Program-made: the position numbers and the translations under genes
The notes under the pieces: generated by a model
Databases searched by the model: none
Told to the model about the DNA's origin: nothing
Seen by the model: only the letters and a program-made list of their open reading frames with translations
Shown here: positions 30,929 through 52,892 of the stretch, piece after piece
Numbering within the stretch: position 1 is the stretch's first letter
Layout of the letters: every line of letters starts with the position of its first letter
Assembly: GCF_001422985.1 (NCBI RefSeq)
Contig: NZ_LMNL01000001.1
Span: forward strand, 186,720-250,719
DNA length: 64,000 bases
Source: Methylobacterium sp. Leaf117
GTDB taxonomy: Bacteria > Pseudomonadota > Alphaproteobacteria > Rhizobiales > Beijerinckiaceae
Reading direction: 5' to 3'

Positions 30929-32110
30929 CTACGCCGCCCGCGCGAGCAGCTTCGCTTTCTCCTGGGCAAACGCCCAGTCGAGCCACGGCGTCAGGGCCTC
31001 GAGATCCGAGCGCTCGACCGTGCCGCCGCACCAGATCCGCAAGCCGGCGGGGGCGTCGCGATAGGCGCCGATGTCGTACGCGATGCCGTCCCGGTCGAGG
31101 GTGTCGGCGATGCCCTTGGCGACGGCGCCGACGGCGGCATCACCGAGCGCCAGCACGTCGGGATCGGCGATGACGAGGCAGACGCCCGTGTTGCTGTAGG
31201 TGCCGGCATCGGCCGCGAGGTGGTCGATCCAGGGCGTGCGTGCCACCCAGTCGTGGATGATTCGGGCATTGGCGTCGGCCCGGGCATGCAGCGCCGGGAG
31301 GCCGCCGATTCGCTCGGCCCATTTCAGGGTGTCGAGATAATCCTCGACCGCCAGCATCGAGGGCGTGTTGATGGTGTCGCCCTTGAAGATGCCCTCGATG
31401 AGCTTGCCGTCCTTGGCCAGGCGGAACACCTTCGGCACGGGCCAGGCCGGGACGTTGCCCTCGATGCGGGCGACGGCGCGGGGGGAGAGCACGATCATGC
31501 CGTGCGCGGCCTCGCCGCCCATGACCTTCTGCCAGGAGAAGGTGACGACATCGAGCTTGGCCCAGTCGAGCGGCATCGCGAAGGCCGCCGAGGTGGCGTC
31601 GCAGATGGTGATGCCCTCGCGGTCGGCGGCGATCCAGTCGCCGTTCGGCACGCGAACGCCGGCGGCGGTGCCGTTCCAGGTGAAGATGACGTCGTTGTGC
31701 CGCGTATCCACCGCCGACAGGTCGGGCAGGATTCCGTAGGCGCCGACATGGACGCGCGGCGCGATCTTGAGTTCCTTCAGGGCGTCGGTGACCCATTCCA
31801 GGCCGAACGCCTCCCAGGCCACGACCTCGACGGTCTTCGGACCGAGCATCGACCACATCGCCATCTCCACGGCGCCGGTGTCGGAGGCCGGCACGATGCC
31901 GATCCGGTAATCGGCCGGCACCTGCAGCACGGTGCGGGTCAGGTCGATCGCCTCGGCGAGCTTGGCCTTGCCGACGGCCGAACGATGCGAGCGGCCGAGC
32001 GGCGCGTCCGAGAGGGCGTCGAGGCTCCAGCCGGGACGCTTGGTGCAGGGGCCGGAGGAGAAGTTCGGCACGCGGGGGCGCGTGGCGGGTCGGTTGGTCA
32101 CGGACGTCAT
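30929..32110 (-). CDS. serC: Phosphoserine aminotransferase, alphaproteobacterial type
   Basis: PLP enzyme making O-phosphoserine from 3-phosphohydroxypyruvate and glutamate, the second step of serine synthesis; in methylotrophs serine also enters the serine cycle. The 393-residue protein has NFSSGPCTKRPGW, APLGRSHRS, GIVPASDTGAVEMAMW, TWNGTAAGVRVPNGDWI, DATSAAFAMPLDW and the PLP-binding Lys195 in FSWQKVMGGE. This is the distinct SerC clade of alphaproteobacteria and Methanosarcina. The ATG at 32110 lies directly next to GGAAGG; a GTG nine bases further in has better spacing, so the start is uncertain. serA is not adjacent downstream. Confidence 0.94.
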   Translation of the reverse strand: MTSVTNRPATRPRVPNFSSGPCTKRPGWSLDALSDAPLGRSHRSAVGKAKLAEAIDLTRTVLQVPADYRIGIVPASDTGAVEMAMWSMLGPKTVEVVAWEAFGLEWVTDALKELKIAPRVHVGAYGILPDLSAVDTRHNDVIFTWNGTAAGVRVPNGDWIAADREGITICDATSAAFAMPLDWAKLDVVTFSWQKVMGGEAAHGMIVLSPRAVARIEGNVPAWPVPKVFRLAKDGKLIEGIFKGDTINTPSMLAVEDYLDTLKWAERIGGLPALHARADANARIIHDWVARTPWIDHLAADAGTYSNTGVCLVIADPDVLALGDAAVGAVAKGIADTLDRDGIAYDIGAYRDAPAGLRIWCGGTVERSDLEALTPWLDWAFAQEKAKLLARAA

Positions 32111-32303
32111 CCTTCCAGATGAGAGCTCCTAGGCGGGGAGGAGTGGCCCGGAGACGCCAATGGACCCGCGTCGCACCGGACGCAAGCGCTCGCCGGACCG
32201 CCGATGGGCGAACCGACACTCGACCAGGGCCGGGCGGCACCGCAGCGCCGGGGAGTGCCGGCGGCCCGGGCCGAGACGAGGCCGCCCCGACTTCGCGCCC
32301 GCC
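32111..32303 (-). promoter_or_regulatory. serC leader region, possible serC RNA motif
   Basis: 193 bases upstream of serC, read on the minus strand, carry GCGTC-N6-GACGC and then CTCCT...AGGAG close to the start, with the second hairpin ending about 15 bases before the GGAAGG ribosome site. A structured 'serC' leader RNA has been described upstream of serC in alphaproteobacteria (Rfam serC family). The position fits, but I cannot align it to the consensus from memory, so this is a suggestion. Confidence 0.3.
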
Positions 32304-33800
32304 TCAAGGCTGTGCAGCCCGGTTGGGCAAGGTCGCGAAGATGCCGCCCGCCAGAAACGTGACAATTCCTAGAATGACGACGGTCTCGCGAAAGGCATGA
32401 ACGTAACCCAGCGGCGTTTCGTCGAGCAGGAAGGCCTTCATCAGCAGCGTTGCGATGGCGATTCCAAGGCTCATCGAAAAATACTGCATCATCGATGCCA
32501 TGGAAGACGCCATGGCGATATCGTGCTCACGAATATCGGTATAAATCAGCGTGTTCATCACGGTGTATTGAAGCCCTGTGAGGCAGCCATAGAGAAACAT
32601 GTAAACCCTGAGAACCAGGGCGCCCGTGCTTGGGCTCAATGCTGCGAATCCGCCGACCGATAAGGCCACGAGCGTCGTGTTCACCAGCAGGAACGGTTTG
32701 TATCCGTAGCGGACCAGCAGTCGATCAACCAACCGTTTGGCAACGATCGATCCGATCGCTTGCGGAACAAGCATCAGGCCGGCTTCCGCGGGCGACCATG
32801 CGCAACCGACCTGAAGGAAGATCACCTGTATCAAGAACAGGCTGGAGATTCCGAGCCGTGCGAGCAGGTTTCCCGCCATCGCGACCGCAACGCTGCGCAC
32901 CCGGAACAGTGCGAGGTCGACCAGAGGATGCCGACAGTGTCGGCTCCAGGCGATGTAGATCGCGAACAGGACGATCGCGCCGGCCAAGCCGGTCACCCCT
33001 TGCCACTGGGACGCCACGACGTTCTCGGAACTGTCGAGGAGCAGGACCGATCCCGCTCCGAAGAGCGCGAAGCCAAGGGTGTCGAACCGTTTCCACGCGA
33101 CCGCCCGGACGTCGATCATGTGCCGATTGTTGACGATCAGCGCGAAAACCCCGATCGGGACATTGATGAAGAAGACCATGCGCCAGGAGATGTACTGCGC
33201 CAGAAACCCGCCCGCGAACGGTCCGATCGTGGCTCCGACCAGTCCCACCGTCGCGACGGTGCTGATCGTGGCGACCAGCCTCTTCGGATCGATGCTGCGG
33301 ACCATGACATATCGGCCGACGGGAAGGAGGGCGGCGCCACCGATCCCCTGAAGGACCCGAGCGGCGACCAGCTGTGACACGCTCGTGGCGAGCCCGCAGA
33401 GAAGGGAGGCGACGGTGAAGACGACGATCGCGCCGCCGAAGATGCGCTTCGTTCCGTAGCGCTCGCACAGCCACGGTGTCGCCGGAATACAGACGGCCAG
33501 CGTCAGAACATAGGCCGTGAGGACCGGATGCAGTTCCAGCGGGACGGTCGAAAACGCGGACGCGATGATCGGGATCGCGGCATTGACGATCGTGGCATCG
33601 ACGGCCTGCATGAACGCGCCGGTCGATACGAGCAGGAGCAGCCAGAAACGGCGCTCGCTTTCCGGTCCTTCAGGCATCCCCACCTTGTCCTGCTCGATAT
33701 GCGGAACCGACGGATGCGATGTCGTCCCGATTGGCGCGCCGTCGGGTGGGAAACCCATCATGGAATCGGGGCCGCACAGTCGGTGAGGGCTATCCGACAT
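32304..33800 (-). CDS. DHA2-family MFS transporter
   Basis: Second drug-type exporter in the window, 498 residues from ATG 33800 (MSDSPHRLCGPDSMMGF); the frame is open upstream to 33899 but that part is not hydrophobic or conserved, and a start at the internal MM is also possible. Features: TGAFMQAVDATIVNAAIPII in helix 1 with the conserved Asp, LQGIGGAALLPVGRYVM, the antiporter motif C-like VATVGLVGATIGPFAGGFLA, and about 14 hydrophobic helices. There is no adjacent HlyD adaptor or regulator, unlike the pump at 7.8 kb. Substrate unknown. Confidence 0.88.
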   Translation of the reverse strand: MSDSPHRLCGPDSMMGFPPDGAPIGTTSHPSVPHIEQDKVGMPEGPESERRFWLLLLVSTGAFMQAVDATIVNAAIPIIASAFSTVPLELHPVLTAYVLTLAVCIPATPWLCERYGTKRIFGGAIVVFTVASLLCGLATSVSQLVAARVLQGIGGAALLPVGRYVMVRSIDPKRLVATISTVATVGLVGATIGPFAGGFLAQYISWRMVFFINVPIGVFALIVNNRHMIDVRAVAWKRFDTLGFALFGAGSVLLLDSSENVVASQWQGVTGLAGAIVLFAIYIAWSRHCRHPLVDLALFRVRSVAVAMAGNLLARLGISSLFLIQVIFLQVGCAWSPAEAGLMLVPQAIGSIVAKRLVDRLLVRYGYKPFLLVNTTLVALSVGGFAALSPSTGALVLRVYMFLYGCLTGLQYTVMNTLIYTDIREHDIAMASSMASMMQYFSMSLGIAIATLLMKAFLLDETPLGYVHAFRETVVILGIVTFLAGGIFATLPNRAAQP

Positions 33801-34607
33801 CGAGAATCCGCGAGATCGGATTGCGCAGAGCGGTCCGGATGCATCGCCGTTCCGGCCATGCCTATAGGCTGAACTGTCATGTGTATAGCAGGTTTGCACG
33901 TGAGAAATAGCCCGCTCGAAGGGGGCGAGGATTGTCGTGTTCTCGACTCGGCCGCGTTCTATTGATCCTGGTTCAGCAATTCCGAACGTATCCGTCCTGT
34001 TGTGCGATCTGCCACTCTCGGGTTCGTCCGGGTCGAGTCACAAACCAGACGCCTGATCAAAGATCGTCGACAATCGATCGTCGAATCAAGTGTCGGGTTT
34101 GTGTTTCGATGTTCTGTTTGATCATTTCTGGTGACAGCGTCACCGAAGGAAAGATCACGGCGTTAGGAATGCCTGCGCCGTTCGACAGGCGTGTGGAGAT
34201 TGTGGCGATGGGCCTGCGCCAAACCTTCGTTCGATCCCGCTTGATCGCAGGATCGATGCGCGCTCGGCATGGCTCGGATGCCGGACCCGCGCGGCAATTC
34301 CTGCGCGCATTCTCCAGCCGCGACGTTTGCCGCGCCCGCGAGGCGATACGGGCGCCGAAGCCCACGGTTCAAGCGGCCACAAACGCCAGACTATCGCCCA
34401 GACGGTATTTTCGGCGCCCGAGCCTCCACGGTCTTTTGTCGACCGTCACCAGAGTTTCACAAATGTTCTCTAGACAAATTCCATACCAAGATTTTCTTAT
34501 AGCCAAATCTATATCAGTATAAAATATTTTACGATCAGAAAATATCTCCAAACGCTGCACGCCATCCCCGGAAACAGAATAAAACTCGATCTGAGAAAGA
34601 GACTACA
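33801..34607. other. 807-bp AT-richer divergent spacer
   Basis: Separates the minus-strand MFS gene from the plus-strand phosphatase-autotransporter. Base composition, especially 34440-34600, is much richer in A/T than the neighbours. It holds a small hairpin GGTGAC-AGC-GTCACC at 34130-34144. TATAAA at 34518-34523 is the best -10 candidate for the downstream gene; its -35 is weak. A 196-codon open frame at 33932-34522 is Arg/Ser/Cys-rich with no recognisable domain or ribosome site and is not called. Confidence 0.55.
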
Positions 34608-37600
34608 ATGCTTCTTCGTATGTCTGGCGTGTCCGCACTTGTGCTGGCTGCTTCCTTCAGTCCGGCGCAAGCGCAAAGCTTGAACACGCTACCGCAGCGG
34701 GAGGGGGCCCAGGTGCTGAACGGCATCTTGAGCCTTCCGCGGAAGACCTATCTGGAGAGCTTGCAGCGCACGATCGAGTTCAATCGTAGCGCCAGCCCGG
34801 CGCGATTCGACAAGGCGGTGATCGATGCCAACAGCTACGATCTCCGCTTCTTCGGGACGAAGGCCGCCAATTTCCTGCAGGCGGTCCCGAGCGGCAGCCC
34901 GACCCCGGTCGGCAACGCGCTCGACTTCATCTCGAAGACCGCCAACGGCCGCGTCGGCGGTGACAGCGGCGTGCTCAAATTGTACTATGGAGCCATCAAC
35001 ACCTACGGCACGGTCTTCGGCCTGACTCAGCCGGGCGTTCCCAATTCCCAGGGCAATCCGAGGCCGTTCCAGGTCAGCAGCGAGATCAAGCTCGACCCGC
35101 GCTACGGCCTGGTTCAGAGCAGCAATTCGGCGGCCTTTCCCAGCGGACACTCGACCGCCGCCAACACCAACGCCCTCCTCTACGCGGTGATGGTACCGGA
35201 ACTCTACCAGCGTTCGTTGACGAAAGCGGCCGAGTTCCAGAACAGCCGCCTCGTGCTCGGCGTGCACTATGCCCTCGACGTCATCGGCGGCCGGATTCTC
35301 GCCTTCCAGGAAACCACGAAGCTCCTGAACAATACGCCCGGCTATCTGCAGCCCGGCGAAGATTTTGCGGCAACCGTCGCGCAATCTGCCCAGGCGCTGA
35401 ACAGCTATATCCGGGCGCAATGCGGCCTCGGCGCCGGGGAGTGCGCCGCGCAGAGCCCGAACGAGTACAGCGACAAGGCGAAGAACAAGGCTTTCTACGA
35501 AAACACGCTGACCTATGGCCTGAGTCCGGTCGGCCCCACCGACCTCGCGCCGGTGGTCCCGGTGGGCGCCGAGGTCCTCCTGGCCACCCGTTTTCCCTAT
35601 CTCAGCGCCGAACAGCGCCGCGACGTGCTCGCGACCACCGAACTCGCCTCGGGTCAACCCCTCGATGACGGCAGCGGCTGGGCCCGGCTGAACCTGTTTG
35701 CGGCCGCCGACGGATACGGTGCGTTCAACGGCCCGATCCGGGTCGTCATGGATGCGGCCAAGGGCGGGTTCTCGGCTTATGACAATTGGGGCAATGATAT
35801 CGGCGGGTCCGGCTCATTGACCAAGGACGGCACCGGCACGCTCGCGCTGAGCGGCAACAACACCTACGCGGGCGGGACGACCGTCCTCGGGGGTACGCTC
35901 ATCGGACAGGCCCGCGCCTTCGGTACGGGGACGATCACCGACAACGCCGTCGTCATCCTCGATCAGGCCGCGGATGCCACCATGGCCAACACCATCAACG
36001 GCACCGGCCGCCTGACCAAGATCAATGCCGGTCGGCTGACCCTCACCGGAAGCGGCACCCTTTCCGGTCCCCTCTCGGTGCTGGAAGGTGGTCTCGCGGT
36101 CAACGGATCGTTCGCGAACGCGCCCGTCATGGTCGGGTCCGGGGCGAGCCTCGGAGGCACGGGGACGATCGGGACCGTGACGGCGCTGTCGGGCGGTACC
36201 GTCGCGCCGGGCAATTCCATCGGGACTCTGTCCGTGGCCGGAAACGTCGCCTTCGCGGCCGGCGCCACCTATCAGGTCGAGGCCAATGCCGCCGGGCAGG
36301 CGGACCGGATCGCTGCCGGAGGTCAGGCGACGCTGTCGGGCGGCACGGTTCAGGTGCTGGCCGCCTCCGGTGCCTACAACCCCCGCACCACCTACACGAT
36401 CCTCACCGCCACGGGCGGCGTCTCGGGCCAGTTCGCCGGGGTGACTTCCAACCTCGCCTTCCTAACCCCGACCCTTCGTTACAGCCTGTCCGACGTCGAC
36501 CTGACGCTCACCCGCAACGACGTGCCGTTCGCCGCGAGCGCCACCTCCCGCAACGGCATGGCGGTCGCCAACGCGATCCAGGCGGCCGGGACGGGCCGGA
36601 TCTACGACGCTGCCGTAGGGTTCACCGCCTCGGAGGCCGCGGGCGGCTTCCGTGCCCTCGCGGGCGGCATCCATGCCAGCACCGTCTCCACCGCCTACGA
36701 GACCGCCTTCTTCGTGCGTGAAGCGGTCCTCGACCGCCTGCGCTGGGGCAACCCCGGCACCGGCCTGGATTACGGCACCCTGCCGTCCGCCTACACGGCC
36801 GATCTGCCGGGCCGCTCGCCGGCGGTGGCGAGCGTGCCCATGCGGATCCTGGACCCGCAGGTGGTCGGGCTCTGGGGCCAGGGCTTCGGCGCGTTCGGCA
36901 GCGCGAAGGGCGGCGGCAACGCCTTCGATATGAACCGGCAGATCGCCGGCTTCGCCACCGGTGCGGACCTGCAACTGCCGAGCGGCCTGCGCCTGGGCGT
37001 GGTTGGCGGCTACACCGAGGCCTACCTGGACAGCGCCGGACGAGCCGGCGGCACCAGGGACGCGGAGAGCGCCGCGCTCAAGAGCGGGTTCGGCGGCGTC
37101 TATGGCGGCTACGCGGTCGGCCCGCTTTCGCTGCGGCTGGGCGCGATCTATGCCGGCACCGACACGCGCACCCGACGGGCGGTGCCGTACGGGCTGTCGA
37201 GCACGCTGGGCGGCCACGGCGGCGGCTACACGGTCCAGGGTTTTGGCGAGATCGGCTGGAAGATTGCGCTGGGAGCGCCGATCGCGGCGGTGCTGGTGTC
37301 GAAGGATGGCGGGACCGGTGCCGGCGTGCCGCTGGTGGCGACCTATGTCGAGCCCTTCGTGGGCGGAGCCTATGTGGGCGTCCGGCGCGATGCCTTCGCG
37401 GAGACGGGCGGCGCGGCCGCACTGGCGGGCGCGGCGGCGGATTACGGCGTCGGCGCCACCACGGTGGGCGTGCGGGGACAGACGGGCCTGGATCTCGGGC
37501 TGGGCTTGCCGGTGACGGTGCGGGGTCTCGCGGGCTACCGGCGGGCGTTCGGGGACGTGGTGCCGAAGGCGCTGCTGACCTTCGCCACCGGTCCGGCCTT

Positions 37601-37763
37601 CCTCAGCGCGGGCGTGCCGATCGACCGGGACGCGTTTGTGGCCGAAGTCGGCCTGGACGTCGCGGTGGCACCGAACGCCAGCCTGGGCGTGGCCTATACC
37701 GGCCAGACCGGCAGCCGGGCTCAGGACCAGGCCGTCAAGGGGAACTTCGTCTGGCGCTTCTGA
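34608..37763 (+). CDS. Autotransporter with PAP2-type acid phosphatase passenger
   Basis: 1051 residues: signal peptide (about 1-22, ending AQAQS); a class-A/PAP2 acid phosphatase domain (about 25-270) with FPSGHS (Pro178-Ser-Gly-His181) and SRLVLGVHYALD (Ser213, Arg214, His220, Asp224), which match motifs 2 and 3 of the superfamily; an autotransporter-associated beta-strand repeat beginning LTKDGTGTLALSGNNTYAGG near 405; a glycine-rich passenger to about 640; and a C-terminal barrel (about 745-1051) ending FVWRF. Motif 1 shows NPRPF (Arg152) but Pro, not Lys, at the expected upstream position. It probably exposes a phosphatase on the cell surface, with insertion by BamA. Likely monocistronic, with its own terminator. 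Confidence 0.88.
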   Translation: MLLRMSGVSALVLAASFSPAQAQSLNTLPQREGAQVLNGILSLPRKTYLESLQRTIEFNRSASPARFDKAVIDANSYDLRFFGTKAANFLQAVPSGSPTPVGNALDFISKTANGRVGGDSGVLKLYYGAINTYGTVFGLTQPGVPNSQGNPRPFQVSSEIKLDPRYGLVQSSNSAAFPSGHSTAANTNALLYAVMVPELYQRSLTKAAEFQNSRLVLGVHYALDVIGGRILAFQETTKLLNNTPGYLQPGEDFAATVAQSAQALNSYIRAQCGLGAGECAAQSPNEYSDKAKNKAFYENTLTYGLSPVGPTDLAPVVPVGAEVLLATRFPYLSAEQRRDVLATTELASGQPLDDGSGWARLNLFAAADGYGAFNGPIRVVMDAAKGGFSAYDNWGNDIGGSGSLTKDGTGTLALSGNNTYAGGTTVLGGTLIGQARAFGTGTITDNAVVILDQAADATMANTINGTGRLTKINAGRLTLTGSGTLSGPLSVLEGGLAVNGSFANAPVMVGSGASLGGTGTIGTVTALSGGTVAPGNSIGTLSVAGNVAFAAGATYQVEANAAGQADRIAAGGQATLSGGTVQVLAASGAYNPRTTYTILTATGGVSGQFAGVTSNLAFLTPTLRYSLSDVDLTLTRNDVPFAASATSRNGMAVANAIQAAGTGRIYDAAVGFTASEAAGGFRALAGGIHASTVSTAYETAFFVREAVLDRLRWGNPGTGLDYGTLPSAYTADLPGRSPAVASVPMRILDPQVVGLWGQGFGAFGSAKGGGNAFDMNRQIAGFATGADLQLPSGLRLGVVGGYTEAYLDSAGRAGGTRDAESAALKSGFGGVYGGYAVGPLSLRLGAIYAGTDTRTRRAVPYGLSSTLGGHGGGYTVQGFGEIGWKIALGAPIAAVLVSKDGGTGAGVPLVATYVEPFVGGAYVGVRRDAFAETGGAAALAGAAADYGVGATTVGVRGQTGLDLGLGLPVTVRGLAGYRRAFGDVVPKALLTFATGPAFLSAGVPIDRDAFVAEVGLDVAVAPNASLGVAYTGQTGSRAQDQAVKGNFVWRF

Positions 37764-37771
37764 TCCCCCGG

Positions 37772-37797
37772 CCCGACGCGGTTCGATCCGCGTCGGG
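37772..37797. terminator. 10-bp perfect stem between convergent genes
   Basis: CCCGACGCGG (37772-37781) and CCGCGTCGGG (37788-37797) are perfect reverse complements with a TTCGAT loop, 8 bases after the autotransporter stop and 34 bases from the trmD stop. Its symmetry suits a bidirectional terminator; no T-run is present on either side. Confidence 0.6.
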
Positions 37798-37830
37798 TCC
37801 CGCCGCGGGCGGACGGGTCCGAGCGGGACG

Positions 37831-38556
37831 TCAGCCCTTCGCCGGCCGGAGCAGATCCGGCCGGCGCTCGCGTGTGAGGCGCAGGGCCTCGGCCTGACGC
37901 CAGCGGGCGATGGCACCGTGGTTGCCCCCGGTCAGCACGTCGGGAATGGCCCGGCCCTCCCAGTCGCGGGGGCGGGTGTAGTGCGGATATTCGAGCTGCC
38001 CGGTCTCGAAGCTTTCCTCGACCCCCGAGGCGAGCTTGCCCATCACGCCGGGGAGCAGGCGCACGCAGGCATCGAGCACCACCAGGGCGGCGATCTCCCC
38101 GCCGGAGAGGATGTAGTCGCCGATCGACACCTCCTCCAGGCCGCGACCGGCGATGACCCGCTCATCGACGCCCTCGAACCGGCCGCAGACGACGACGAGG
38201 CCGGGGCCTTCGCTCAAGGCCCGGACCCGCGCCTGGGTCAGCGGCCGGCCACGCGGACTCATGAGCAGGCGCGGGCGCGGATCGTCGGGCGGGGCGGCGG
38301 CGTCGATGGCCGATGCCAGCACGTCGCAGCGCAGCACCATGCCGGCGCCGCCCCCGGCCGGGGTGTCGTCCACCGCCCGGTGGCGCCCCAGGCCGTGCTC
38401 GCGGATGTCGCGCGCTTCCAGGCTCCAGGTGCCCCGCGCAAGCGCCTCGCCGGACAGGGACAGCCCGAGCGGCCCGGGAAACATCTCCGGGTAGAGGGTG
38501 AGGATCGTGGCGGTCCAGGGTCGGCTGGACCCGGCGACGGGGGAGGGGACGGTCAT
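37831..38556 (-). CDS. trmD: tRNA (guanine-37-N1)-methyltransferase
   Basis: SPOUT-class enzyme that methylates G37 next to the anticodon and prevents frameshifting. The 241-residue protein starts after a 14-residue extension with [17 protein letters not shown], then [30 protein letters not shown], the knot motif [31 protein letters not shown] and [12 protein letters not shown]. These are all canonical. Unusually it is detached from rimM and rplS: rimM lies 3.1 kb upstream, beyond two plus-strand genes. Confidence 0.97.
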
Positions 38557-38627
38557 GCCGCTTGATGGCGCGCGGAGATGCGCCCGGTCAACGTGGCACC
38601 GAACCGTTCGGGGTGGGTTGTCCCGCC

Positions 38628-39419
38628 ATGGTCCTGTCCGGCATCGCCCATCTCCGTTCTCCCCTCGTCCGATCGCTCGCCCTGGCGGCGGCGCTCTCCG
38701 GGGCCGGCGTGATCACACCGGATACGACGCAGGCGGCCGAACCGCTGGCGCCGCCCGGCGCGCCCGCGACCGCGTTTCCCAAGCCCGACCGGCCCGTCGC
38801 CGAAATCGTGGCGCCGCTCTGGGCCTCCGAATCGCAGCGCAATTCGGTCGACGAGGTCGGGCAGGTGATGCGGCTGATGGGCATCGCCCCGGGCCAGAGC
38901 GTCGGCGATATCGGGGCTGGCAGCGGCTATTACACGGTGCGGATGGCCGAGCGGGTCGGCCCCCAGGGGCAGGTCTATGCCGAGGATGTCACGCCACGGT
39001 ACCTGGCGGGGCTCGAGACCCGGATCGCCAAGAGCGCCCTGACCAACGTGACGGTTGTGCGCGGCGGGCCGCACGATCCGCGCCTGCCGGCGGGCTCCCT
39101 CGATGCCGCCGTGCTGGTCCACATGTATCACGAGATCGCCCAGCCCTTCGGCCTGTTGCACAATCTCGGCCCCATGATGAAGCCGGGTGGCAAGGTCGGC
39201 ATCGTCGATGCGGACGACGTTCCCGCGCGCCATGGAACGCCGCCGAAGCTGCTGGCCTGCGAACTGGCCGCCGCCGGCTACCGCCAGACCGGGTTTTCCG
39301 TGCTCGAGGGCGGCGTCGGCTACCTCGCGATCTTCGCGGCGCCGCGACCCGAGGACAGGCCGGACCCGGCTTCGATCCGGCCCTGCCGGGATGAGACCAC
39401 GCGCGCGGGCCGGCGATAG
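38628..39419 (+). CDS. Class I SAM methyltransferase with an export signal
   Basis: 263 residues from ATG 38628 ([16 protein letters not shown]); upstream in-frame starts exist but would bury the signal. Residues 1-40 form a signal peptide ([13 protein letters not shown] ... TQAAEP). The mature part is a Rossmann methyltransferase with motif [18 protein letters not shown], the acidic [26 protein letters not shown] for motif IV and [17 protein letters not shown]. The predicted site of action is outside the cytoplasm, where no SAM supply is known. Divergent from trmD; the diguanylate cyclase follows 190 bp downstream. Substrate unknown. Confidence 0.85.
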
Positions 39420-39611
39420 CGCGGGGCCTGGAGCGCGGTTCGGGCGATCCCCGGGCTACGATCCCCCGGACGCTGGCACGGCGCGGCGCGGGGGAAGGTC
39501 GTCGTGAGACACGCTGAGGTTGTCGTTACGAAAAGGGGTGGTGGGCCGGCCTGAACGCAGGCTGGATTCGTTCTGTGCGTGGTATCGCCTTCTGGGCTTT
39601 ACAACCAGGGG

Positions 39612-41309
39612 ATGATTCCGACGATGCGCCTGGTGGCCGGCTTTTGGCGTCGTCTCGATGCGACCAGCGCCTGGATCGGCCTCGGCATTCTCGCGCCCCT
39701 CGGCATGCTCGTCGTCTCCGGGACGATGCTGCTCAACCTGCGCGACGATGCGTGGGAGAAGGCGCAGCAGACGTCGCGCAACCTGCTTCAAGTGATCGAG
39801 CGCGATATTGCCCGCAACATCGAGGTGATCGACCTGGCCCTGCGCGGTGCGGTCGAGAACCTGTCGGCACCGGGCTTTACCGACGTCAGCCCGGAACTGC
39901 GCCAGCTCATCCTGTTCGACCGCGCGGTCACCACCCGCGACATGGGTGTGATCCTGGTGATCGACGAGGCCGGCAACACCCTCTACGACGCCAACGCCGT
40001 GCCGGCGCGCCAACTCAACAACGCCGATCGCTCCTATTTTCGCATCCATCGCGACCATCCCGAGATCGGGCTCGACATCAGCGAGCCGGTGATCTCCCGG
40101 TTCCTCGGCGTTCCGGTGGTGGTGCTGAGCCGACGGATCGCCAAGCCGGACGGCAGCTTCGGCGGCGTGGTGCAGGCCTCCCTGAAGCTCACCTATTTCA
40201 GCAGCCTGTTCGAAAACCTCGCGCTCGGGACCAAGGGGGCGATCAACCTCTACCGGGCGGACGGCACGCGCCTGGTGCGGTATCCCCCCTGGGACGGAAC
40301 GCTGGGGACGAGCGTTGCCGATTCACCCGTCTTCCAGCACCTCGTCCGCGTCGGGCACGGCAGCTTCGTCGGCCCCACGATCCAGAACACGGGGTCGCGG
40401 CTCCACACCTTCATGCGGATCGGCGACCTGCCCCTCATCCTCGACGTGACCCTGGCGCCCGAGGAGATCGAGGCCGAGTGGCGCGGGCGGGCGGCGGTGC
40501 TGGGCGGCGTGCTGCTGATCCTGTGCGGGCTCACCGCCGGTCTGTCGCTGCTGTTCGGGCGCGAATTGCGGCGGCGCGCCCGGATGCAGGAGGAACTGGT
40601 CCGCCTGTCGCGCACCGACGCCCTGACCGGGTTGCCGAACCGACGCCGGTTCGAAGAGGCCTTGGCGGGGATCGGTGGGGCGGGGATCGGTGGGGGGGGC
40701 ATCGGTGAAGCCGGGGCGGTGGGATCGCTGTCGCCGTTCCCCCTGTCGCTCCTGGTCATCGATGCCGACCACTTCAAGGCGCTCAACGACCGCTATGGCC
40801 ACGCCGTCGGCGACGAGGTGCTGAAAGGCCTCGCGCGCTGCCTCGAGGCCAGCGTCGCCCGCGCCGGCGACCTCGTGTGCCGGGTTGGCGGCGAGGAATT
40901 CGTGGTGCTGCTTCCCGGAAGCGACGGCCTGGGCGCCGCCCGTGTCGCGGCCCGCATTCACGCGGCGGTCGGCCGCCTCGATCTCGCCGTCTCGGGCATC
41001 GCGGCGGGCACGCTGACGGTCAGCATCGGCGTGGCGAGCAGCGACGACGTCGAACCGGGGATGTGGTCGCTGAGCGACCTCTATCGTGCCGCGGATGCCG
41101 CCCTATACGCCGCCAAGGCGGACGGGCGGAACCAGACCCGCCATGCCGACCCTTCGGGCGGGTCCGCTGCTTCGGACGACGCGGCATTTTTCGAGCGACG
41201 CGCTTTGGCGCGGCCGATGCTGTCCGACCCGGACGGAGCGCCGGCGTCCGGGTCCGTCGCCTGCGACCGGTCGAGGGAGGATGGTCCGTTCTCCGACTGC
41301 TCCGGCTGA
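39612..41309 (+). CDS. Membrane diguanylate cyclase with periplasmic Cache-type sensor
   Basis: Makes cyclic di-GMP. From ATG 39612 (or 39624) the protein has about 565 residues: helix 1 (GLGILAPLGMLVVSGTMLL), a periplasmic double-Cache-like sensor (about 45-295), helix 2 (GGVLLILCGLTAGLSLLFG) and a GGDEF domain with SRTDALTGLPNRRRFEE, DADHFKALNDRYGH and CRVGGEEFVVLLPG. The active GGEEF is intact and the inhibitory I-site RxxD is present as RAGD just ahead of it. A Gly/Ile repeat is inserted inside the GGDEF domain (separate entry). The start is uncertain because ribosome-site spacing is poor for every candidate. Confidence 0.92.
   Translation: MIPTMRLVAGFWRRLDATSAWIGLGILAPLGMLVVSGTMLLNLRDDAWEKAQQTSRNLLQVIERDIARNIEVIDLALRGAVENLSAPGFTDVSPELRQLILFDRAVTTRDMGVILVIDEAGNTLYDANAVPARQLNNADRSYFRIHRDHPEIGLDISEPVISRFLGVPVVVLSRRIAKPDGSFGGVVQASLKLTYFSSLFENLALGTKGAINLYRADGTRLVRYPPWDGTLGTSVADSPVFQHLVRVGHGSFVGPTIQNTGSRLHTFMRIGDLPLILDVTLAPEEIEAEWRGRAAVLGGVLLILCGLTAGLSLLFGRELRRRARMQEELVRLSRTDALTGLPNRRRFEEALAGIGGAGIGGGGIGEAGAVGSLSPFPLSLLVIDADHFKALNDRYGHAVGDEVLKGLARCLEASVARAGDLVCRVGGEEFVVLLPGSDGLGAARVAARIHAAVGRLDLAVSGIAAGTLTVSIGVASSDDVEPGMWSLSDLYRAADAALYAAKADGRNQTRHADPSGGSAASDDAAFFERRALARPMLSDPDGAPASGSVACDRSREDGPFSDCSG
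40665..40709 (+). repeat. 15-nt in-frame tandem repeat inside the GGDEF domain
   Basis: Three units of about GCGGGGATCGGTGGG occur at 40665-40679, 40680-40694 and (degenerate) 40695-40709, encoding AGIGG-AGIGG-GGIGE. They fall between the first helix (RRRFEEALAG) and the strand that leads to DADHF, a surface loop in GGDEF structures. Length is a multiple of three, so the frame is kept. Looks like a recent slippage expansion. Confidence 0.8.
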
Positions 41310-41698
41310 GGTAACGCTGTCGCGGCGCTGCCCTTGGCCTCCCGCGCCTCCGGGACCGATGGGCACACGCACGGTGCTTGCGAGACAGACTCGGCCGCGC
41401 TTCGACCTCGACTTCTACGATCGGGCTGTATTGCGGGGCGACGAGGGCGTGGTGTTCGACACCCGTCAGAACGGGCGCACTACGCCAAGCAGCGCCTGCC
41501 GGCGATCACGCCTGCCCACGCGATACCCCGGGGACGGCGAACGTCGGGCCTTCACCGTCTCGGTGCCGAACGCGGCGCGTCACCCGGTCCGTTCGGCCAC
41601 CCGGTCCGTTCGGCCACCCGGTCGTATGGGGGACGCTGGCCGATCCGATGATCCTCCCCGAGCGTCACCGAATCGGCAGTTCCCGCTAAACGGGTTCC
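41310..41698. other. 389-bp spacer, possible degenerate gene remnant
   Basis: Lies between the cyclase stop and the rimM stop. One frame reads PRFDLDFYDRAVLRGDEG and another, nearer the end, reads TLADPMILPERHRIGSSR before a stop; both look more protein-like than the rest, and they are in different frames, as expected of a frameshifted remnant. A 17-bp tandem repeat lies between them. I do not recognise the family and cannot call a gene. Confidence 0.4.
41581..41623. repeat. 17-bp tandem repeat, 2.5 copies
   Basis: CACCCGGTCCGTTCGGC occurs at 41581-41597 and 41598-41614 without change, followed by a 9-base partial copy at 41615-41623. The period is not a multiple of three, so within a gene each copy would shift the frame. 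Confidence 0.9.
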
Positions 41699-42385
41699 TC
41701 AGACGGGTTCTTCGGGCGGGCGCGGCTGGGCCGGAGCGAACAGGTCCTCCGGCGGGTCGATCACCACGCGGCCGCCGGCGATGTCGAGATCCGGCACGAA
41801 GGCCTTGGTGAAGGGCAGGAGGGCGGTGGCGCCGCCCTGGGCCGGCTTGATTTCGAGAAGGTCGCCGCCGCCGTAATTCGGCACGTCCGCGACGGTGCCC
41901 AGCACCGTGCCCTGCGTGTCGACCACGTCGAGACCGACGAGATCGGCGGTGAAGAACTCGTCCTCCTCCGCCACGGTGCCGAGGCGATCGCGCGGCAGGT
42001 ACAGGGCGAGGCGGTTGAGACCCTCCGCCCCGGTGCGGTCGCCGACGCCCTTGACGCGCGCGACCAGGAGGTCGGGGGAGGCACCGCCAGCCTGCCGGAC
42101 ATCGGTGAGCTCGATGCGGCGGCCATCGGCACCGATCAGCGGCCCGTAGGACGCGATGGCCTGCGGGTCGCCGGTGTAGGATTTCAGCCGGACCTCGCCG
42201 TTGAGCCCGTGTGCCCGCCCGAACTCGCCCATCTGGACGAGACTTGGGTCGGTGGGCGGCAGAGGCGCGTCGACCTCCGCCTTGGGCCGGTGGGGCGAGG
42301 TGGCCGCCTCGCTGCCGATGCGGCCGGGCCGCGCACGGCGGCCGCCGTCACCGTGGGTCGATAGGCCTCCGGGACGACGCGCCAT
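41699..42385 (-). CDS. rimM: 16S rRNA processing protein RimM
   Basis: Binds ribosomal protein S19 and helps mature the 30S head. From ATG 42385 the product has 228 residues; the first 45 (Arg/Gly-rich, [19 protein letters not shown]) are an extension before the conserved [20 protein letters not shown]. The PRC-barrel half has [35 protein letters not shown] and [20 protein letters not shown]. It starts 10 bases after the rpsP stop, so the two are surely co-transcribed. trmD, the usual next gene, is 3.1 kb away. Confidence 0.95.
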
Positions 42386-42395
42386 GCGGGGGACC

Positions 42396-42758
42396 TCAGG
42401 CTGCGGCGTCTTCGGCCGGGGCAGCGGCCTTCTCGGCGCGCTTGGCGGCGCGCTCCTTGGCCTTCTCGCCCGGCTCGGCCTTCTGCGGGTTGTTGCGCGC
42501 GGGGCGCTTGGCGAGGCCAGCGGCGTCGAGGAAGCGCAGGACGCGGTCCGTCGGCTGCGCGCCCTTGGCGAGCCAAGCCTGGATCTTGTCGGCTTCGAGC
42601 ACGATGCGGGCCGGATCATCCTTGGCCTTCATCGGGTCGTAGACGCCGACCTTGTCGATGAAGCGGCCGTCGCGCGGGGCGCGGGCATCGGCGACGACGA
42701 TGCGGTAGTACGGGCGCTTCTTGGCGCCGCCACGGGTCAGGCGGATCTTGAGGGACAT
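42396..42758 (-). CDS. rpsP: Ribosomal protein bS16
   Basis: Small-subunit assembly protein. The 120-residue product starts [21 protein letters not shown] and contains [42 protein letters not shown] and a C-terminal Lys/Ala-rich tail usual in alphaproteobacteria. ATG 42758 is preceded (minus strand) by AGGAGAAAAAA. It lies between ffh and rimM, the normal order. Confidence 0.97.
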
Positions 42759-42872
42759 TTTTTTCTCCTGATGAGGGGGTTTTGCGTGTGTCGGATGAGG
42801 CGTCCGGTGGGCAGAGAGGAGCGGAGAAGACGCAGGTCCCTTCGCTCGTCGCTGCGCACCGGCGCCCCGGTG

Positions 42873-44426
42873 CTACTTCTTCTTCCCGAACGGGAAGCCG
42901 CCAAGGCCCGGAAGCCCCTTCGGCCCGCCGAGGCCTGGCAGGCCCGGCATCTTGCCCCCGAGGCCCGGAGGCATGGGGGGGAGCTTGCCGCCGAGCTGCT
43001 TCTGCATGTCGGCGATCATCTCCGGCGTGGGCTCCGCCATGCCGGGGGGCAGGCCGGGCATACCGCCCATTCCACCGCCGCCGCCCATGCCGAACATCGA
43101 GCCCAGCGCCTGGCCGATGCCGCGCTTGCCCGAGCCCATCGCCTTCATCATGTCGGCCATGGTCCGGTGCATCTTGAGGAGCTTGTTCAGCTCCTCCACC
43201 TTCGTCCCCGAACCCGCCGCGATGCGCTTCTTGCGGGAATTCTTGAGGAGGTCGGGATTCTTGCGCTCCTGCGCGGTCATCGACGAGATGATGGCCCGCT
43301 GGCGCTTGAACATGTTCTCGTCGAGGTTGGCGCTCTCGACCTGCTTCTTCATCTGGCCCATGCCCGGAAGCATGCCCATCAGGCCGCCGATGCCGCCCAT
43401 CTTCTCCATCTGGACGAGCTGCATCGACAGGTCGTCGAGGTCGAACTTGCCCTTGCGCATCTTCTCCGCGGTGCGGAGCGCCTGCTCGTGGTCGATGGTC
43501 TCGGCCGCCTTCTCGACCAGCGAGACGATGTCGCCCATGCCGAGGATGCGGTTGGCGACGCGGGAGGGATGGAATTCCTCCAGGGCGTCGACCTTCTCGC
43601 CGGTGCCGACGAGCTTGATCGGCTTGCCGGTGACGGCGCGCATCGACAGGGCCGCGCCGCCGCGCGAATCGCCGTCCATGCGGGTCAGCACGATGCCGGT
43701 GACGCCGAGGCGCTCGTCGAAGGCGCGGGCGGTGTTGACCGCGTCCTGGCCGGTGAGCGCGTCGGCGACCAGCAGCACCTCGTGCGGGTTGGTGGCGGCC
43801 TTGACCTCGGCCGCCTCCGCCATCAGCGCCTCGTCGAGGGTGATGCGGCCGGCGGTGTCGAGCATCACCACGTCGAAGCCGCCGAGGCGGGCGGCGTCCA
43901 TGGCGCGCTTGGCGATCTGCACGGCCGACTGGCCGGCGACGATCGGCAGGCTCTCGACCTCGACCTGCTTGGCCAGGATCGCCAGCTGCTCCATGGCAGC
44001 CGGGCGACGGGTGTCGAGCGAGGCGAGCAGAACCTTGCGCTTGTCGCGGGCGACGAGGCGGCGGGCGATCTTGGCCGTGGTGGTGGTCTTGCCCGAGCCC
44101 TGCAGGCCGACCATCAGGATGGCGACGGGGGCGGGGGCGTTGAGATCGATGATGCCGGCTTCCGAGCCCAGCATCGCCACAAGCTCGTCGTTGACGATCT
44201 TGACGACCATCTGGCCGGGCGTGACCGACTTCAGCACGACGGCGCCGACGGCCTTCTCGCGCACCTTCTCGGTGAAGCCGCGCACCACCTCGAGGGCGAC
44301 GTCGGCCTCCAGCAAGGCGCGGCGGACCTCACGCAAAGCCGCGGTGACGTCGGCTTCGGTGAGGGCGCCGCGGCGCGTCAGGCCGGAGAGAATTCCGGAG
44401 AGGCGATCGGACAGGCCTTCGAACAT
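42873..44426 (-). CDS. ffh: Signal recognition particle protein Ffh
   Basis: SRP54 GTPase that, with 4.5S RNA, targets nascent membrane proteins to FtsY and the translocon. The 517-residue protein has the N domain (FEGLSDRLSGILSGLTRRGAL), the G domain with VGLQGSGKTTTTAKIARRL, DTRRPAAMEQL, LDTAGR, LTRMDGDSRGGAALS and GTGEKVDALEEF, then the Met-rich M domain (about 325-440). The C-terminal 70 residues are a Gly/Met/Pro-rich tail, longer than in E. coli. The RNA gene ffs was not seen nearby. rpsP follows 114 bp downstream. Confidence 0.97.
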   Translation of the reverse strand: MFEGLSDRLSGILSGLTRRGALTEADVTAALREVRRALLEADVALEVVRGFTEKVREKAVGAVVLKSVTPGQMVVKIVNDELVAMLGSEAGIIDLNAPAPVAILMVGLQGSGKTTTTAKIARRLVARDKRKVLLASLDTRRPAAMEQLAILAKQVEVESLPIVAGQSAVQIAKRAMDAARLGGFDVVMLDTAGRITLDEALMAEAAEVKAATNPHEVLLVADALTGQDAVNTARAFDERLGVTGIVLTRMDGDSRGGAALSMRAVTGKPIKLVGTGEKVDALEEFHPSRVANRILGMGDIVSLVEKAAETIDHEQALRTAEKMRKGKFDLDDLSMQLVQMEKMGGIGGLMGMLPGMGQMKKQVESANLDENMFKRQRAIISSMTAQERKNPDLLKNSRKKRIAAGSGTKVEELNKLLKMHRTMADMMKAMGSGKRGIGQALGSMFGMGGGGGMGGMPGLPPGMAEPTPEMIADMQKQLGGKLPPMPPGLGGKMPGLPGLGGPKGLPGLGGFPFGKKK

Positions 44427-44470
44427 GCGTCAGGCTCCCTGAACCGGCATCGTCTGCATCGTCGGAGCGA

Positions 44471-44695
44471 TCACTGGTTGACGCCCGCGCTCTCGGCCCG
44501 CCGCGCCTGCAGCGCATCCTCGAAGCCGCGGATCGCCTTGGCGAACTTGTCGCGGCATTCCGGATTGCAGAAGCCCACCACGGCGCCGTTGTAGAGGGTG
44601 AGCGAATCCGCCGCGATCGGCTTGCCCGACCACGGGCAGGTGTCGTTCACCGCATCCTCGATGCGCAGGGGCGTCTTCGCGGGGGCGTTGGGCAT
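44471..44695 (-). CDS. Small YHS-like Cys protein
   Basis: 74 residues from ATG 44695 (MPNAPAKTPLRIEDAVNDT); the open frame extends to 44830 but without conservation or ribosome site. The core CPWSGKPIAADSLTLYNGAV with FCNPECRDKFAKAI resembles the YHS metal-binding pattern (CPVTG...YFC..CKDKF): one Cys, then a Cys-x3-Cys. It also loosely recalls YacG, but the second Cys of the first knuckle is absent. A role in metal binding is inference. Located 44 bp upstream of ffh on the same strand and possibly co-transcribed. Confidence 0.75.
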   Translation of the reverse strand: MPNAPAKTPLRIEDAVNDTCPWSGKPIAADSLTLYNGAVVGFCNPECRDKFAKAIRGFEDALQARRAESAGVNQ

Positions 44696-44975
44696 CGGAA
44701 CTCGACGACGACGTGTGAACCGGAACCGACGCCCTGTTCTCCAACGCGAAACCCGCCCGAGGGCGCATCGCGCTGTCGGGCGTTGACCTCCGGCCTCACA
44801 GGGCCGGTCGGCGTTCGTGTTGACGATCAAACCGTCGCATGAATGCGAAGGCGGTTAATCCGATGAGGGGGTGAAGTCAAGTTTTGCGCCTGCTCGGCGA
44901 TCCGCCGCCCGCCAAGCCTCATACTCAGTTGTTCGGGACGACCCGGCTATGCGTTTGCCTTGAGCCATCAGGACG

Positions 44976-45080
44976 ATGAGAACGTCGATGGACGCCCACA
45001 CCCTGACCCTGCTGCTGTTCCCCTGCGGCGCTCGCGCACTGGGTCTGTGGCCCCTGTGGCTGGCCCGTCGCGTGCCTTGA
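44976..45080 (+). CDS. Possible 34-residue hydrophobic mini-protein
   Basis: Within the 400-bp spacer 44696-45095 an open frame from ATG 44976 to TGA 45080 (or from ATG 44988) encodes MRTSMDAHTLTLLLFPCGAR and ends ALGLWPLWLARRVP. It has one hydrophobic segment, strongly GC-biased third codon positions like real genes here, and AGGA shortly upstream, although closely spaced. It is opposite in strand to its neighbours. The rest of the spacer shows nothing recognisable. Weak call; could be chance. Confidence 0.25.
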   Translation: MRTSMDAHTLTLLLFPCGARALGLWPLWLARRVP

Positions 45081-45095
45081 GCCGGGCCGAGCCGC

Positions 45096-46178
45096 CTACG
45101 ACGGCGCCGTCGGGAGACCCGGGAGGGCGGTGAGCGACGGGTCCGAAAACGCCATCGCCTTGAACAGGCTGCCCATGCCGCGCCGGGAGGGGTCGGTCAG
45201 GCGGGCCACCGCTGCCGTGATCGCATCGCGCTGGGCCGGGCTGGCGTCGCGGCCGAGGCGTTCGGCGCGCTCGCGCAGGCCCAGGGCGGCGAGAACGTCG
45301 CGCTGGTCGGCCGGGCCGTGCAGGGTCGCGCCCTCGGCGCGGGCGGCGCGGCCCAGGGCAGAAAAGTCCACATGGGTGGTCAGGTCGGCCTCGCCGGGCG
45401 TGGCGAGGGGCGGCACGAAACCGTGGCCGCGCATCGCCTGGAGCGAATCGCCGAACCCGGGCCGGACATGGCCGTAATCGATGATCAGGGCCGCGCCCCG
45501 GTCGGCGACGAGGCGACGGGCGAGGCTGCGCACGATCTCGAGGGCGGCGCTCGGCAGGGTCATCAGCACCCCGTCCGGACCGGTGGCGTTGATGCGGGTG
45601 TCGGGCTCGGCAGCGAGGCCGAAGGCGAGGGCAATCCCGTCCGGGGCGAGGCCCACGAGGCGCTCGAACCAGCCGCGCGCGGTGCGCTGGAACTGGCGCA
45701 CGGGGAGCGCGTCGAAGAACTCGTTGGCGATGACGAGGGTCGGCGCGCGCGGGAGGGTATCGATGCTGTCGTGCCAGGTCGGCGCGGCGGCCGCGAGGCG
45801 TGTCGCCTGGGCTTCGCGCAGGACCGGGCTGGTCTCGACGAGGTGCAGGGCGGGGCGGAGTGTCGGGGCGGCGCGTGACAAGGCTCGGAGCGCGTCCTGC
45901 ATCAGGGTGCCGCGCCCGGGGCCGAGTTCCACCAAAGCGAGATCGGGCGGTGCGCCCATCGCGCCCCAGGTCGCCGCGATCCAGATGCCGATCAATTCGC
46001 CGAACATCTGGCTGATCTCGGGGGCGGTGATGAAGTCGCCGCTGGCGCCGAGCGGGTCGCGGGTGCGGTAATAGCCGTAGACCGGATGGCCGAGGCAGAG
46101 GGTCATGTAGCGGTCGAGCCCGATCGGACCCGAGGCCAGGATCTCGTCGCGAATCGCGGCGAAGAGCGGACTCGTCAC
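45096..46178 (-). CDS. SAM-dependent methyltransferase, MidA/NDUFAF7 family
   Basis: 360 residues from GTG 46178, which overlaps the lgt stop (GTGA); the same frame stays open far upstream but only as a shadow of lgt and the chemoreceptor gene. It starts SPLFAAIRDEILASGPIGLD and has YMTLCLGHPVYGYYRTRDPLG, GDFITAPEISQMFGELIGIW, motif I LVELGPGRGTLMQDALRAL, and IANEFFDALPVRQF. The mitochondrial member NDUFAF7 dimethylates an Arg of a complex I subunit; the bacterial role is thought to be similar but is not proven. Coupled to lgt. Confidence 0.92.
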   Translation of the reverse strand: MTSPLFAAIRDEILASGPIGLDRYMTLCLGHPVYGYYRTRDPLGASGDFITAPEISQMFGELIGIWIAATWGAMGAPPDLALVELGPGRGTLMQDALRALSRAAPTLRPALHLVETSPVLREAQATRLAAAAPTWHDSIDTLPRAPTLVIANEFFDALPVRQFQRTARGWFERLVGLAPDGIALAFGLAAEPDTRINATGPDGVLMTLPSAALEIVRSLARRLVADRGAALIIDYGHVRPGFGDSLQAMRGHGFVPPLATPGEADLTTHVDFSALGRAARAEGATLHGPADQRDVLAALGLRERAERLGRDASPAQRDAITAAVARLTDPSRRGMGSLFKAMAFSDPSLTALPGLPTAPS

Positions 46179-47092
46179 GCCGCGTCGGCCTTCGCCGGAT
46201 TGGCGGCGCTGGCGGTGCTCGCGGGGGGCAGGTCCTCCACCGCGACACGCGGGCGGGTGGTGCCGCGCAGCGCCATCACGATGGCGGCGAGCCCGACGAG
46301 CGCCATGGGGACACACAGCACCATCCCCATGGTGATGCCGCCGGTGGACCAGTTCTCGGTGCCGAACAGGTAGCCGAGCTGGCGGTCCGGCTCGCGGAAG
46401 AACTCGCAGAAGGTCCGGGCCAGGGCATAGCCGAGGACGAAGATGCCGCCCATCAGGCCGGGCTTGCGGAAGCCGTAGGCGCGCACCGCCAGCGCCATCA
46501 CGACGAACATCAGGGCGCCCTCGGTGGCGGCCTCGTAGAGCTGGCTCGGATGCCGGGGCAGGGGGCCGCCGGAGGGAAACACCACCGCGTAGGCGAAGTC
46601 CGGGGCGATGCGCCCCCACAATTCGCCGTTCACGAAATTGGCGATGCGGCCGAAGAACAGCCCGATCGGCACCACCACGCCGGCGATGTCGAGGAAGGTG
46701 AAGGGCTGGAGCTTGCGGGCACGGGCGAACAGCAGCATCGCCAGAACGGCGCCGAGGAAACCGCCGTGGAAGGACATGCCGCCGTTGCGGATGGCCAGGA
46801 TCTCGATGGGGTCGGAGAGGTAGAGCGGCAGGTTGTAGAACAGCACGTAGCCGATGCGCCCGCCGAGCACGACGCCGAGCGCCACCCAGACGATGAGATC
46901 GTCGATGTCGGTGAGGGTCGGGCGCCGCACCACGCCCCAGTAGCGGTCCGCCGCCACCAGCCGACGGGCGTAGTACCAGCCGCCGAGCAGGCCTACGATG
47001 TAGGCCAGCGCGTACCACTTGATGGTGATCGGCCCGATCGCCACCGCTACGGGATCGATGGCGGGGAAGGGCAGGGCGAGGAGCGGCGGCAT
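46175..47092 (-). CDS. lgt: Prolipoprotein diacylglyceryl transferase
   Basis: Inner-membrane enzyme that moves diacylglycerol from phosphatidylglycerol to the lipobox Cys of prolipoproteins. The 305-residue protein has about seven helices, the essential His in GGMSFHGGFLGAVLA, and the signature GLFFGRIANFVNGELWGR, then HPSQLYEAATEG and the FCEFFREPDRQLGYLFG segment. ATG 47092. Co-translated with the MidA-like methyltransferase, an arrangement seen in many alphaproteobacteria. Confidence 0.97.
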   Translation of the reverse strand: MPPLLALPFPAIDPVAVAIGPITIKWYALAYIVGLLGGWYYARRLVAADRYWGVVRRPTLTDIDDLIVWVALGVVLGGRIGYVLFYNLPLYLSDPIEILAIRNGGMSFHGGFLGAVLAMLLFARARKLQPFTFLDIAGVVVPIGLFFGRIANFVNGELWGRIAPDFAYAVVFPSGGPLPRHPSQLYEAATEGALMFVVMALAVRAYGFRKPGLMGGIFVLGYALARTFCEFFREPDRQLGYLFGTENWSTGGITMGMVLCVPMALVGLAAIVMALRGTTRPRVAVEDLPPASTASAANPAKADAA

Positions 47093-47173
47093 GGCGAGGC
47101 GTCCCGGTTGACCCGGGGCATTGGAGCCAAGCCCGCCGGGGGGTCAAGGCCGCTGAGGACATGGCTGACGAAG

Positions 47174-47200
47174 CAGGGCCGGCGAGCGCCGCCGGCCCTG
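47174..47200 (-). terminator. Terminator of the chemoreceptor gene
   Basis: An 11-bp perfect stem (CAGGGCCGGCG at 47174-47184 with CGCCGGCCCTG at 47190-47200) with an AGCGC loop lies 25 bases beyond the stop of the minus-strand chemoreceptor gene. No T-run follows; strong GC stem only. Confidence 0.6.
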
Positions 47201-47224
47201 GTCGCGTGGGGTCGGGCGCGCGCC

Positions 47225-49387: not shown

Positions 49388-49600
49388 CGAAGGGCACCGA
49401 TCGGGAAATGCGAAGCCCGATCATGCAACCAAATACTGAAGAATTAGGTTTCAGCCCGTCCGTCGCTCGGCAGCCCAGGCAGAGACTGCCGGTTACGCTC
49501 CGCCGATGCGGCATCAATTGTTGCGTTTCGGCCAGCGACGCGGCGGAGACTCTGGTCGACCACACGCCAGCTCAAACCGGGCGGCCGAAACCCATCCGGC

Positions 49601-51154: not shown

Positions 51155-51230
51155 GGAGACACGGGCTCCGGCGAGGCGGCGATGCGGAAGACGGATGCCC
51201 GCACATAGGCGCTCGGCGCGCCAGAAGCGA

Positions 51231-51349: not shown

Positions 51350-51421
51350 GAGCCGCCGCGCGATGGCGACGACGCCGTCCGTCGCGGGTTCGGGGCGAGG
51401 GCGTCGCCTTGTGATGCGGCG

Positions 51422-51778: not shown

Positions 51779-51779
51779 C

Positions 51780-52829: not shown

Positions 52830-52892
52830 GGAGAGGCCGGAAGGATGCGGAGAGACGCGAAGGCCGGGCCGTACGGCCCGTCGTGCCGGGCG

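Follow-up and report, generated by a model that had tools for sequence, protein, structure and literature searches.

The window analysed here, the whole 64,000-nucleotide stretch at positions 186,720 to 250,719 of contig NZ_LMNL01000001.1 of Methylobacterium sp. Leaf117, harbored at 34608..37763 on the plus strand, the strand of all features of this gene, an open reading frame (ORF) that starts with ATG, is open throughout and encodes 1051 residues plus a stop. Pfam and NCBIfam matches identified it as the gene of a PAP2 phosphatase autotransporter. At the N-terminus, residues 1–22 (34608..34673; MLLRMSGVSALVLAASFSPAQA^Q) were read by eye as a Sec signal peptide with an AxA site (AQA^Q), and a similar start occurs in most relatives. 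The PAP2 domain (PF01569) matched residues 145–233 (35040..35306) with 42.6 bits against a curated cut-off of 27.2 (E = 6.2e-11), and the PATR repeat, above its curated cut-off and in two stretches, matched residues 404–431 (35817..35900), at the start of the beta-helix. Between them, residues ~309–375 (35532..35732) link PAP2 to the beta-helix and resemble, by profile matches, the C-terminal segment of subtilases, a feature absent from the initial annotation of this DNA. The autotransporter beta-barrel, residues 755–1051 (36870..37760), ends in WRF and was matched over their full lengths by PF03797 (residues 755–1031, profile positions 1–255 of 255, 136.3 bits, E = 2e-39) and by the NCBIfam barrel model TIGR01414 (residues 534–1051, profile positions 1–432 of 432); over the C-terminal 422 residues the barrel region shares 58% identity with its relative L039. 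A Sec-type signal (by eye), a passenger and a C-terminal barrel were found in one chain, as in classical monomeric (type Va) autotransporters. The initial annotation had described a PAP2 phosphatase built as an autotransporter passenger, with a signal peptide, a beta-strand repeat and a C-terminal barrel ending in WRF, and all of these points were borne out, the Pfam domains standing above their curated cut-offs within a single ORF.

For the putative active site, phosphatase motif 2 is PSGH at residues 178–181 (35139..35150), with His181 as the proposed general acid, and motif 3 is SR-x5-H-x3-D at residues 213–224 (35244..35279; Ser213, Arg214, His220, Asp224), with His220 as the proposed nucleophile, both as previously annotated. 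Across 14 members in a local-pair alignment, the window protein included, SGH, Arg214, His220 and Asp224 were invariant (14/14), as were Arg152 and Pro153 (35061..35066), the second half of motif 1. The presence of Arg152-Pro153 had been seen correctly before, together with the claim that the upstream Lys is Pro; the latter is reached only by counting seven residues back from Arg152, whereas the family alignment puts the proposed motif-1 Lys at Lys124 (34977..34979), in a column with K in 13 members and R in one (L039). Literal K-x6-RP spacing is absent from the window protein, in which 27 residues (125–151; 34980..35060) instead of six separate Lys124 from Arg152-Pro153, about 21 of them apparently inserted. 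Among the 72 family rows, 28 carry an uninterrupted K-x6-RP no more than 130 residues before SGH (e.g., STEPAKRFYKYARPYRW), 40 were counted as split with a loose pattern, and four lay outside both patterns (L012, L018, L041 with a Lys candidate present, and L060). Because this column is conserved and relatives carry the uninterrupted form, motif 1 is better explained as split by an insertion than as lost; loss of the motif-1 Lys was rejected. It is improbable that the interruption has abolished or altered PAP2 catalysis and left the passenger as a binding or adhesive head: the long Lys124–Arg152 separation and an Arg in place of Lys124 in the closest relatives would favor this, but the remaining motif residues are invariant, the Lys124 position is K or R in 14/14 members, and the split form is common to many members, contrary to recent decay.

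Judged by sequence, the solved structures closest to the window protein are those of acid phosphatases (7f18 at E = 2.9e-7, with 1iw8 and 1d2t among them), and the family profile matched 1iw8 at E = 5.1e-22. Class A acid phosphatases (Escherichia blattae 1d2t and 1iw8; PhoN) have PAP2 motifs 2 and 3 in common with the window protein, and 1iw8 carries AK-x6-RP in the same form as the uninterrupted family members. These enzymes are stand-alone with an uninterrupted motif 1, whereas the window protein has a split motif 1, a stalk and a barrel. PAP2 enzymes also include lipid phosphatases, whose substrates would here be undecaprenyl pyrophosphate, phosphatidate or the phosphate of lipid A, and a passenger of this kind would remodel outer-surface molecules and not mine phosphate. 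Matches to the NCBIfam undecaprenyl-diphosphatases and PgpB hint in this direction but fell far under their cut-offs (27/250, 22/229 and 21.5/261 bits); with acid phosphatases as the nearest solved relatives, family members also in Gram-positive bacteria, which are without lipid A, and PHO-box-like sites that point to phosphate, such a lipid phosphatase is very improbable.

A site resembling the PHO box (consensus CTGTCAY-N4-CTGTCAY) was counted if it lay on the coding strand, no more than 250 bp upstream, and agreed with the consensus at 11 or more of the 14 positions. Of 55 family genes, 22 had such a site, compared with a mean of 1.0 and a maximum of 4 in 60 rounds of shuffling, in counts that are not independent given that the family rows are related and in which the start codons were script-chosen. 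On the reverse strand only 1/55 genes had such a site, and outside the genus the count was 11/23 against 0.6 expected. As controls, 3 of 156 ORF upstreams and 2.5% of 5996 random 250-bp stretches reached the threshold. The test covered 55 of 60 rows, five having been removed because their start codon was too distant or their upstream region short, and L016 was kept by exception (start 237 codons into the frame, score 13), without which the count is 21/54. Among eight further upstreams, three reached 11 (L039, L147 and L149) and five did not (L140, L141, L142, L145 and L146). The family-wide enrichment indirectly supports phosphate scavenging; to this extent the earlier proposal that the enzyme mines phosphate stands, and the surface remodelling offered beside it corresponds to the very improbable lipid phosphatase. 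The site of the window gene itself (CCGTCAC-CAGA-GTTTCAC; 34443..34460, plus strand; 11/14 positions; −165 to −148, 147 bases before the ATG) was rejected as stand-alone evidence.

An autotransporter acid phosphatase has reportedly been described by Hoopman et al. (2008, J Bacteriol 190:1459), namely MapA of Moraxella catarrhalis. The design is thus already known, and the novelty implied by the initial annotation does not hold: PMC9289746, PMC3419190 and PMC5424252 all present MapA as an acid phosphatase of the autotransporter type. Its signal spans 23 residues, the acid phosphatase region covers 24–279 and includes active-site His233, and the barrel occupies 672–940 (PMC5424252). No other characterised autotransporter is named as an acid phosphatase, and MapA is said to lack characterised homologues (both in PMC9289746). 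Known here by this description, MapA shares with the window protein the signal peptide, an N-terminal class-A-like acid phosphatase with an active-site His and a C-terminal barrel, and the MapA-type combination of acid phosphatase head and barrel was found in one chain in the window protein. By analogy, this precedent would count for activity of the window protein. Taken together, the sequence evidence suggests, with a probability of roughly 0.7, that the window protein is a MapA-like surface acid phosphatase that is probably active and probably phosphate-scavenging.

Several observations weigh against this assignment. In a wider alignment (71 of the 72 rows), the Lys124 column had K in 50 rows and R in five, while the other 16 showed a gap or a different residue; 14 of these 16 carry an uninterrupted K-x6-RP that the aligner placed elsewhere, and L002 and L060 are without one. 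With a different alignment method the column had K in 48 rows and R in five. The closest relatives, L039, L081 and L097, have Arg at the Lys124 position, which at the sequence level is a conservative change, and L081 is the same as L039 over the compared domain. Both AlphaFold models were left unused and are too poor to read active-site geometry or a 12-strand barrel count from them (residues 21–460, three-sequence alignment, mean predicted local distance difference test score 32; C-terminal 422 residues, two-sequence alignment, mean score 30). Moreover, the PHO-box-like site found before the window gene is weak alone, 2.5% of random stretches also reaching 11, and sites with three mismatches occur in the window at chance level (13 found, 9.6 expected). 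The best such site of L039 lies elsewhere (−213), and L097 and the Pantoea gene score 10 and 9, under the threshold. Finally, no phosphate genes were found with Pfam among the five neighbouring frames.

In the mechanism that we infer, from export and surface exposure through activity and substrate to the catalytic roles and the control of the window gene, the protein would be a MapA-like type Va autotransporter carrying a PAP2/class-A-like acid phosphatase as the head of its passenger. Sec would export the chain, the C-terminal barrel would enter the outer membrane and the passenger would move outside, where the beta-helix would hold the PAP2 domain at a distance from the cell and phosphomonoesters would most likely be hydrolysed. 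With catalytic residue roles carried over from class A phosphatases, His220 would attack phosphorus and His181 would protonate the leaving group, while Lys124, Arg152 and Arg214 would hold the phosphate and Asp224 would orient His220. The gene would most likely be induced by phosphate starvation, and phosphate freed at the surface would pass to high-affinity uptake.

The junction between the PAP2 domain and the beta-helix points to a second relationship. The residues after PAP2 were first aligned with the subtilase domain ends of protease autotransporters, and residues ~309–375 match the last part of the subtilase domain, which begins at the catalytic-Ser loop. A tail-only profile from 24 sequences, searched against 177,635 PDB sequences, matched best to 8e7f, the Serratia protease autotransporter Ssp (E = 2.3e-9), with an aligned region that starts at GTSMAAP (chain position 312) and stops at position 376; the active-site Ser of Ssp is given as Ser314 in PMC9977779. 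Subtilases made up 11 of the 12 matches listed with this profile (E ≤ 1), including nine subtilisin-type rows at E 0.004–0.023, largely variants of one enzyme, and Mirolase at E = 0.025; the sole non-subtilase was lysyl-tRNA synthetase (E = 0.3). In addition, two disjoint subsets each ranked 8e7f first and in one register, namely 12 members of 647–729 residues with no barrel match and with seven lipobox-like starts by pattern (E = 2.9e-8), and six autotransporters (E = 7.5e-8). An hhalign comparison of the tail with two S8 autotransporters gave 93.9%, and of 40 longer frames, 34 singly reached E ≤ 1e-3 against a small set made up of four S8 autotransporter tails.

The likeness could alternatively be convergent, the tail being a helical connector that does not share descent with subtilases. 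Consistent with this, a profile from the tails of eight short members found nothing up to E = 1, and 0/32 frames shorter than 600 residues matched the four S8 autotransporter tails. Six longer frames also gave no such match: L016 and L090, two long frames that hold soluble-type genes, and L018, L019, L041 and L107, which form one barrel-bearing group, two of them with no Pfam PATR. Pfam Peptidase_S8 (PF00082) matched neither the window protein nor the junction segment alone, the classical subtilisins appeared only at the modest E values given above, and the six-autotransporter subset placed a methyltransferase second (E = 0.031), above subtilisin DY (E = 0.16). Against these points stand the agreement of the two disjoint sets on one protein and one register, the preponderance of subtilases among the matches listed, the single-sequence matches of most longer frames and the hhalign result. 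Convergence is thus unlikely, and the junction likeness is probably due to common descent in the PATR-bearing members.

The simple scenario in which tail and barrel were inherited together from an S8 autotransporter is weakened, because Gram-positive and barrel-less members have the tail, because the barrel-bearing L018-type group is without subtilase likeness, and because the barrel label needs at least six changes on the family tree, five of them forced by well supported branches. Tentatively, in the origin of the PATR-bearing PAP2 phosphatases, PAP2 may have been grafted onto a subtilase C-terminal piece cut at the catalytic-serine loop, leaving a beta-helix docking module; such a piece could act as a swappable adaptor that mounts unrelated enzymes and that, in different phyla, was later joined to a barrel, a lipid anchor, a sortase signal or an SLH domain. 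In the mechanism outlined above, residues ~309–375 would seat the head on the beta-helix, like the end of the subtilase domain in protease autotransporters. As far as PMC9977779 describes it, Ssp of Serratia marcescens (8e7f) is built like the window protein, with a catalytic head, a junction, a PATR-bearing beta-helix and a barrel. The head of Ssp is a protease, whereas that of the window protein is PAP2, with protease likeness only in the short stretch before the beta-helix; at the position of the catalytic Ser of Ssp, the profile alignment shows the Thr of GPTDLAP. The Peptidase_S8 domain and the Asp/His/Ser triad of S8 autotransporters were not found in the window protein.

The joining of the enzyme to the stalk via a piece resembling a subtilase end would be what distinguishes the family of the window protein from the known enzyme, and it is the feature that a specialist might find surprising. 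It offers a concrete, testable idea of enzyme-head exchange in autotransporters, and it may explain why, in PMC3419190, passenger clustering places MapA with non-SPATE protease autotransporters. Among the papers listed in searches of the open-licence literature, no title or abstract start pointed to this family, to its split motif 1 or to its junction, which is weak evidence of absence. Two records were set aside as unrelated: PMC10303873, where the name pAP20 belongs to a vector and a PAP2 family protein takes up one row of a table, and PMC10673610, which deals with another subject.

Matches to the family were widespread in the genus, with 92 of 111 genomes at E = 1e-20 or better and 90 at 1e-60 or better; among the matches listed, the open frames were mainly of ~480–560 or of more than 1000 residues. 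In a phylum sample, 33 of 398 genomes matched at 1e-20; in 26 the match reached 1e-59 or better, and the remaining seven may have ordinary PAP2 proteins. The MapA class, essentially one studied protein, would thus become a family present in most Methylobacterium genomes and in several phyla, with phosphate scavenging as its likely role. The genome of the window itself has four strong members, i.e., the window gene, a 490-residue frame on contig C21 in which a barrel match was not found, and two genes cut by contig ends (C3 and C34). Contigs of this genome were also seen to end inside PAP2 or other autotransporter genes (L002 on C3, L041 on C34, and L003–L007 at the ends of C34 and C39), and repeated barrel sequence may break the assembly at such ends.

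Outside Methylobacterium, the nearest relative found was a Pantoea agglomerans plasmid gene (L140, 3899–6922; 57%), and the relatives from Pantoea agglomerans, Azospirillum and Paracoccus are annotated as autotransporter-domain proteins; further relatives occur in Burkholderia, Klebsiella, Deinococcus, Niallia, Paenibacillus, Nicoliella and Streptomyces. The family tree was built from 48 of 73 rows (72 rows, which include the locus of the window gene, plus the window protein), the 25 names omitted being mostly soluble-type Methylobacterium rows. On it the window protein fell among barrel members of Methylobacterium and Pantoea, and L140 branched as the sister of the Methylobacterium group, a placement suggestive of gene transfer among bacteria that possibly share plant surfaces. 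The tree should be read with regard to long branches that meet (the L015 and L018 groups) and to the long L012 branch. Barrel labels came from Pfam, from BLAST to the window barrel region or from annotation; three rows were unlabelled, the label of L107, whose ORF runs off its contig, came from kinship only, and the label "none" was mostly derived from frame length.

Other anchors were apparent in some relatives. Lipobox-like N-termini were found by pattern scan in 10 of 72 rows, including Burkholderia and Deinococcus, and by eye Niallia showed a sortase-substrate-like C-terminus and Paenibacillus an SLH-like repeat at its end. The combination of PAP2 and tail was also seen in enzymes from Deinococcus, Burkholderia and Gram-positive bacteria (L142, L143, L144, L145, L146 and L148), with apparent lipobox, sortase-like end, SLH-like repeat and Tat-like signal among these members. 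If real, such anchors would count for the reading of the family as surface phosphatases. The Klebsiella record CP125156.1 (L149), filed as a plasmid, is 5.4 Mb long and chromosome-like in size and gene content.

Around the window gene, four of the five scanned frames had a Pfam match (MFS, TrmD, methyltransferase and GGDEF). A conserved neighbourhood was rejected, L039 sharing only a partial GGDEF match beyond the gene itself. The frame at 30929..32110 on the minus strand had no Pfam match at 1e-5, and by eye we take it to resemble phosphoserine aminotransferase. The G+C content is 61–63% around the gene start (32001–36000) compared with 70–73% from its second half to 54 kb (36001–54000), so the PAP2 half of the gene differs in composition from the barrel half.

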